Positions 62,799-64,000 of a DNA stretch of 64,000 nucleotides are shown here, one piece after another. The stretch covers positions 1,302,001 through 1,366,000 of the forward strand of contig CM073197.1 of assembly GCA_037042915.1 (NCBI GenBank), in the 5' to 3' direction. A program made the translations under genes and the position numbers. The notes beneath the pieces are model-generated. The model worked only from the letters and a program-made list of their open reading frames with translations. It was not told the origin of the DNA and did not search any database. Every line of letters starts with the position of its first letter. Position 1 is the first letter of the stretch. The DNA comes from Auricularia sp. M13 (taxonomy: Eukaryota > Basidiomycota > Agaricomycetes > Auriculariales > Auriculariaceae).

Positions 62799-64000
62799 AT
62801 GTCGTCGGCCGTAACACAACCGCTGCTGGATACTATAGAGCCGGACGAGGTGGAGAGCAGGCCCGCGCAGGCTGCTGCGCCCGCGCGCGCGGGTGCGGCT
62901 GGCAGCGCGCCGCCGACCAGTCTCGCCAGCACGCAGAACGACGCGGAGGCTGGTACGCGGCGCTCGTTCCTTCATGGTGTGGCGCGAGATGTTTACCCTA
63001 TGGCCATGGCTAGGTATTGCTGGGATATTCCGCCAGGCAAGTGGTACACGTAGTCGCGCTACTGGTAGACGCGCCGCATATTGAACCCGCGCGCGTAACG
63101 GCAGTCGTCGCATCCGTGAGTACTAGTGTTCCTACAGAAATTGGAGGAGGGTAACTGATAAAATGAACACCAGATTAGCGCTGTTTTTCTTGTATTTCTT
63201 CCGCATAGCGGCGGTGGCGACCTACATGCTATGCTACTACTTCGTGGACAACTATGTCTTTGTCGTGCGTCGATTGATTGGCAGCCTTCTGCGGGTCCTT
63301 CAGCGACTGAAGTGCGGATAGACTGTTGGCGTGGTGGTGCTGCTCGCGATGGACTTCTGGAACTGCCGGGTGCGTTCAGTGCGCGTGGACGAAATGGCAT
63401 GGCAATATTGACGCGCGACAGAACGTCTCGGGGCGGACGCTCGTCGGCCTGCGGTTCTGGAACCAGGTGGACGACGACGGCGAGAGCTATTGGGTGTTCG
63501 AGTCGCGCGACGTGCGTCCGTTCGACGTTCACGCTTGTTTTCGCGTGGAGGATCCCTGACGCGTGTTTTAGCCGTCGCGACCAGCGAACGCCATCGACTC
63601 GAGGTGCGGCCTGTCACCTTTCAGACGGACGGAGTGGACTGACCATTGACGATTGAACCCGGCCCGCAGGATGTTCTGGGTGCGCAAATATTCCGTCGCC
63701 CGCGCGGGGCAAGGTGTCTGATGCACATTGCCACAGGTCGCGCTCTACACCTTCCCTGTCATCTGGTTCCTCCTTCTGCTTCTCGCTATCCTGAAGCTCA
63801 ATCTCTCGTGCGTGATCCACCACTTGCCCGAAGCGGCGTCGCTAACTAGCGCTATAGCTTCATACCCATCGTCATCCTCGCGCTTGTCTTCAACTTCACG
63901 AATGTCATTGGCTTCACCTACGCGTGCGTAGATCGGACTTGCTCTTTGACCTCGCGCTTTCCTGGTGCTCACATGTTTTGCATAAGCGATCGCGACGCGA
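62799..64000 (+). CDS. TVP23: Golgi membrane protein Tvp23, partial at the right edge
   Basis: Four-helix Golgi protein of the TVP23/FAM18 family, involved in late Golgi traffic. Eleven exons, each join keeping frame: 62799-62952, 63014-63036, 63105-63115 (11 bp), 63174-63261, 63322-63369, 63422-63511, 63572-63603, 63670-63679 (10 bp), 63737-63807, 63858-63923 and 63987 onward. The spliced reading gives [141 protein letters not shown], which follows the family throughout. The intron at 63037-63104 starts GCAAGT, a GC-AG intron. The 3' end lies outside the window. Confidence 0.9.

Follow-up and report, generated by a model that had tools for sequence, protein, structure and literature searches.

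Can coding exons of only 10 and 11 nt be genuine parts of a conserved gene? The question is raised by the 3' end of the window, as we call the whole 64,000-nucleotide stretch of DNA analysed here (G000:C5:1302001–1366000, from a genome of 52.1 Mb in 14 contigs), where a TVP23 gene of at least eleven exons had been predicted, including microexons of 11 bp (SSHP) and 10 bp (MFW) and an intron of the GC-AG type. Our analysis argues with high confidence for an intact, single-copy-looking TVP23 gene of an intron-rich, GC-rich fungus, in which eleven exons, both microexons among them, are constitutive. The sequence, its phase, its fit to the domain and its fit to the splice signals are the directly observed parts of this explanation, and the transcript would be spliced as in our model, judging by these features.

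Gene model and protein family

A complete PF05832 (DUF846) gene extends over 62799–64110 on the plus strand, with 11 exons and 10 introns. We take PF05832 to be the Tvp23 family, whose members include yeast Tvp23 and human TVP23A-C and which is located in the Golgi in yeast and animals. The introns measure 50–68 bp each and sum to 592 of the 1312 bp, so the originally claimed intron content of half the gene, a figure that covered the window only, becomes 45% over the full gene. The exons join in phase, as originally noted, into 720 coding nucleotides including the stop, giving a product of 239 residues, and every coordinate of the original prediction holds.

Exon 1 (62799–62952, 154 nt) begins with the ATG at 62799 and encodes an N-terminal tail outside the Pfam domain. 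It is followed by intron 1 (62953–63013, 61 bp, GTACGC..CTAG), which has a weak branch site, by exon 2 (63014–63036, 23 nt), coding (G)IAGIFRQ, and by the GC-AG intron 2 (63037–63104, 68 bp), with donor cagGCAAGT and acceptor GGCAG. The 11-nt exon 3 (63105–63115) supplies SSH and two bases of the P codon, and is separated by intron 3 (63116–63173, 58 bp, GTGAGT..CAG, branch ACTGATA) from exon 4 (63174–63264, 91 nt), which carries the first hydrophobic segment. Exon 5 (63322–63369, 48 nt) is backed by our model, by Pfam and by the held-out splice model described below, and exon 6 (63422–63511, 90 nt) by a six-frame PF05832 match with an E-value of 7.9e-9. Exon 7 (63572–63603, 32 nt) ends with two bases of R, which the 10-nt exon 8 (63670–63679) completes before coding MFW. 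Hydrophobic segments are again encoded by exon 9 (63737–63807, 71 nt) and exon 10 (63858–63923, 66 nt). Exon 11 (63987–64110, 124 nt; G000:C5:1365987–1366110) lies inside the window with its first 14 nt only (63987–64000), and its remainder, with the TGA stop, was read from the same genome. All of these features are on the plus strand. Taking microexons as internal exons of about 30 nt or less, exons 3 and 8 qualify, with conserved residues in both; exon 2 is also a microexon by length, and exon 7 lies just above the limit.

The joined protein matches PF05832 with 167.5 bits in one stretch, over positions 1–138 of 139, well above the curated cut-off of 22.6 bits, and a tail of ~58 residues at the N-terminus is not covered by the profile. 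A broken gene is ruled out by the stop-free reading frame together with the full domain. A simple hydropathy scan found runs at residues 63–84, 81–109 and 150–199, corresponding to several membrane-spanning segments, and the protein may well have a role in the Golgi, by analogy with its family. In a six-frame PF05832 search of the whole genome, the sole match at E <= 0.001 was 63419–63511 of the window, that is, exon 6. Relatives of the protein sought in collections of genome contigs and viral contigs were not found, and a PDB sequence search returned one chance-level match, to a light-harvesting chain (E 0.55).

Removal of single microexons from the protein affects the domain match to different degrees. 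The loss of RMFW (exon 8) lowers the PF05832 score by 21.4 bits to 146.1, and domain fit strongly backs the 10-nt exon; the loss of SSHP (exon 3) costs 6.1 bits, leaving 161.4 and a match that begins at position 4, which is moderate backing for the 11-nt exon.

The gene directly upstream (60197–62476, plus strand) has seven predicted exons, the first of which are noise-like, and presumably encodes SNF4 (the SNF1/AMPK kinase gamma subunit).

Splice model and the stretch before exon 3

Splice signals were assessed with a splice and gene model trained on its own predictions from 226,866 bases, taken from the extended window and from loci of three families (TCP1, proteasome and ubiquitin-conjugating). 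Positions 62700–64200 were excluded from both coding and splice training, although the background composition did include them; the minimum exon was set to 6 nt and the share of GC donors fixed at 0.015. Introns taken directly from adjacent exon-wise family matches had proved too ambiguous and were replaced by this self-trained model, and a version that allowed zero-length exons was discarded after drifting to 56 GC-donor introns in 473. The final model yielded 75 genes with 396 introns and 323 internal exons. Its consensus, from 282 training introns, has a donor near GT(G/A)CGT, a CT(G/C)AC-like branch site and a median intron length of 55 bp, and the TVP23 introns fit the GTGCGT-like donors, CTGAC-like branch sites and 55-bp median of this genome.

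Run freely on the region, the model recovered 63226–63264 and exons 5–11, including the 10-nt exon, and left out exons 1–3. This chain, which starts at the internal ATG at 63226, scores 26.1 nats compared with 18.4 for the full 11-exon model; by splice and coding signal alone, the preference of the model counts against the N-terminal exons. Its shortened product matches PF05832 at positions 21–138 only, with 143.3 bits instead of the 167.5 of the full protein, and this lower, shorter match shows that exon 3, and exon 4 from its start, are wanted. The first profile positions correspond to exon 3, so the profile is silent on exons 1 and 2 and on introns 1 and 2; exon 3 thus has Pfam support, whereas the evidence for exons 1 and 2 is limited to their phase, their fit to the splice signals and the plausibility of the N-terminus.

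With intron 3 forced and any start allowed, the top path was exactly the set of exons 1–3 in the original prediction, so that exon 1 is the choice of the held-out model once intron 3 is fixed. Intron 2 combines a GC donor in a strong context with an AG acceptor and keeps the frame. The GCAAGT donor claimed at 63037 is present in the sequence, and with ATG 62799 and acceptor 63104 fixed, the GC-AG path came first of 767 one- and two-intron, frame-keeping paths, with 0.86 of the summed likelihood in the model; the whole likelihood weight of donor 63037 comes from this top-ranked path, and the nearest alternatives are only ~2.8 nats lower. The GC-AG path was still best with GC shares of 0.002, 0.005, 0.03 and 0.06. 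Two copies of the 9-mer CAGGCAAGT lie on the plus strand of the window and none on the other strand. Compared with the 282 training introns, intron 2 has a total score at the 2nd percentile and a best branch site of 2.1 bits (4th percentile), intron 1 lies at the 10th percentile in total and the 5th for its branch site, and intron 3 at the 24th in total. The GC donor at 63037 is probably used, as modelled, and would be the weakest junction of the gene.

The alternative that survives best accepts both microexons and has the stretch before exon 3 spliced otherwise, either with no GC-AG intron or with no exon 1; we consider it rather unlikely. It could take the form of a GT donor, with exons 62799–62884 and 62937–62952 and then an intron to 63104, or of a later start at ATG 62974 within intron 1. 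Such paths come fairly close, at 15.6 nats compared with 18.4 when the GC intron is forbidden and 13.2 nats, with the start at 62974, when intron 1 is forbidden, and they concern a region outside the Pfam model in which introns 1 and 2 have the weakest branch sites of the gene. However, the best path with the GC intron forbidden itself has a GC donor, the equal-scoring GT-only path breaks exon 4, and both the ranking among the 767 paths and its persistence across GC shares from 0.002 to 0.06 favour the eleven-exon model with its GC-AG intron.

Skipping, retention and forbidden short exons

The eleven-exon model makes predictions for skipped exons and retained introns. Neither microexon length is a multiple of three. 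With exon 8 skipped, translation would stop at codon 169 of 237; skipping of exon 3 shifts the frame and meets no stop in the remaining model; if both are skipped, the frame is restored only past exon 8. Retention of any of introns 2–8 (7 of the 10) introduces a stop at codons 64–167; with intron 9 retained, the stop falls at codon 237 of 257. No stop before the end results from retaining intron 1 or intron 10, the latter staying in frame. These outcomes fit constitutive splicing.

They could also be read as regulation, with frame-shifting skips acting as an off-switch for TVP23 via nonsense-mediated decay. The lengths of both microexons and the stop that follows skipping of exon 8 are compatible with such a switch, and Trichoderma virens has a microexon described as switch-like (in the part of PMC11121469 available here). 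Nevertheless, we regard this reading as very unlikely: nothing in our results points to regulation, the skipping of exon 3, meeting no stop, would make a poor off-switch, and the introns flanking exon 8 score about average, at the 41st and 61st percentile among training introns. Less likely again is that the frame-breaking microexons form a conserved, regulated splicing checkpoint, in which skipping of exon 8 truncates the protein; if this were true, the cell would tune a Golgi membrane protein by splicing. To our knowledge, switch-like microexons are hardly known in this fungal group.

Forbidding exons of <12, <15 or <30 nt in the splice and gene model gave one identical wrong chain, at 19.0 nats compared with 26.1 for the free run (7.1 less), which shifts the donor of exon 6 four bases downstream, reads exon 7 in another frame and continues to exon 9. 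It remains an open and plausible TVP23 but replaces 14 conserved residues by wrong-frame ones, no stop codon betrays the error, and its product scores 111.9 Pfam bits compared with 143.3 for the shortened free-run product, a loss of 31.4. The expectation that a normal gene caller would miss the gene or cut it short is therefore right in substance, for a home-made caller rather than a production one: trained on the same genome, it began at ATG 63226 and lost exons 1–3 and part of exon 4, but it did find the 10-nt exon. TVP23 matters mainly for annotation, as a compact test case for callers that bar very short exons.

To address chance readings, each gap was shuffled 100,000 times with its dinucleotides preserved. 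The real gaps each contain one copy of their strict motif (SSHP or MFW) between splice dinucleotides, as against 0 of the 100,000 shuffles, and a chance origin of the microexons was rejected on this basis; relaxed motifs, with S/T accepted for serine and any GC donor in the first case and conservative changes in the second (MFW), turned up in 3 and 12 of 100,000. No stop-free, in-frame link between exons 7 and 9 by a single intron was found among GT or GCAA/GCAG donors at 63575–63700 with introns of at least 40 bp, which rules out the replacement of introns 7 and 8 by one intron. Between exons 1 and 4, 27 single-intron links keep the frame, and all of them skip the SSHP exon. It is hardly credible that splicing omits one or both microexons, their residues being a chance reading and the product using other junctions: the stop-free chain obtained when short exons were forbidden does exist, but at 7.1 nats and 31.4 Pfam bits less, and the shuffles and the lack of a single-intron, in-frame substitute for exon 8 speak against it. 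Both microexons of the original prediction are thus upheld by the Pfam losses and the shuffles.

Very short exons and GC donors in this genome and in known systems

Very short exons recur in this genome. With TVP23 left out, 10 of the 323 predicted internal exons measured <=16 nt, 7 of them <=15 nt, and 18 of the 323 were <=25 nt, in a sample in which three conserved families and the window are over-represented. Four of the ten were compared with Pfam, all from ubiquitin-conjugating enzymes, and family profiles clearly back three: a 12-nt exon (L057, G000:C4:1548647–1548658), whose removal costs 10.2 Pfam bits, and two 16-nt exons (L059/L069, G000:C3:4022611–4022626, and L060, G000:C6:2934060–2934075), whose removal costs 22.6 or 22.5 bits. 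An 11-nt predicted exon coding DRKR (L071, G000:C5:1113734–1113744), in an enzyme that presumably resembles UBE2W, gains hardly any support at 1.3 bits. Among the other six, some are doubtful by eye, for example a 6-nt exon in a TCP1 gene. Microexons here also interrupt conserved cores, those of ubiquitin-conjugating enzymes for example, and are not a feature of fast-evolving families alone. GC donors were found in 24 of the 396 introns of the sample, an upper figure since these are predictions.

The family searches also returned paired matches of equal or near-equal scores at G000:C5:2679091–2681492 and 3183000–3185401, and at G000:C5:3130902–3131174 and 3756050–3756322, which suggests recent large segmental duplications or assembly repeats. 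Several actin-family (PF00022) genes, alike in exon layout, are clustered at G000:C5:2924452–2945016 and 3519189–3520725.

The two TVP23 microexons may be remnants between closely spaced introns, either ancient or gained. In the likely mode of splicing, intron definition, the donor, branch site and acceptor of each short intron (50–68 bp) would together mark it as one unit. Intron definition imposes no minimum exon length, so that exons of 10 or 11 nt could be joined like any others. One intron would use a GC donor, the remaining positions of which match the consensus for pairing with U1.

At the level of the protein, TVP23 does not differ from the known Tvp23/DUF846 family, with which it shares the same full-length domain. 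Its gene structure can be set beside published cases. G. lucidum has an average of 6.25 exons per gene (as given in the portion of PMC3342255 seen here), and fungal microexons are, according to the accessible part of a 2024 paper, little characterised (PMC11121469). GC-AG introns made up 1.3% of ~2.46 million introns, with a higher share in some GC-rich genomes; in the excerpt of that study, the GC donor stands in a strong context, as it does in the one inferred case of TVP23 intron 2 (PMC3033335). A further parallel is with the P450 genes of Phanerochaete chrysosporium, a white-rot basidiomycete, in which the shortest exon is 6 bp and 41 genes have exons of <=29 bp (PMC1184071, in the sections considered here). 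The microexon feature of TVP23 is real, and it is ordinary for an intron-rich fungus, given the very short exons in further genes of the genome and those published for a basidiomycete. The P450 genes likewise hold very short exons between small introns; they belong to another gene family and, in the same sections, alternative splicing is suggested for them, whereas the 10- and 11-nt exons of TVP23 break the frame if skipped.
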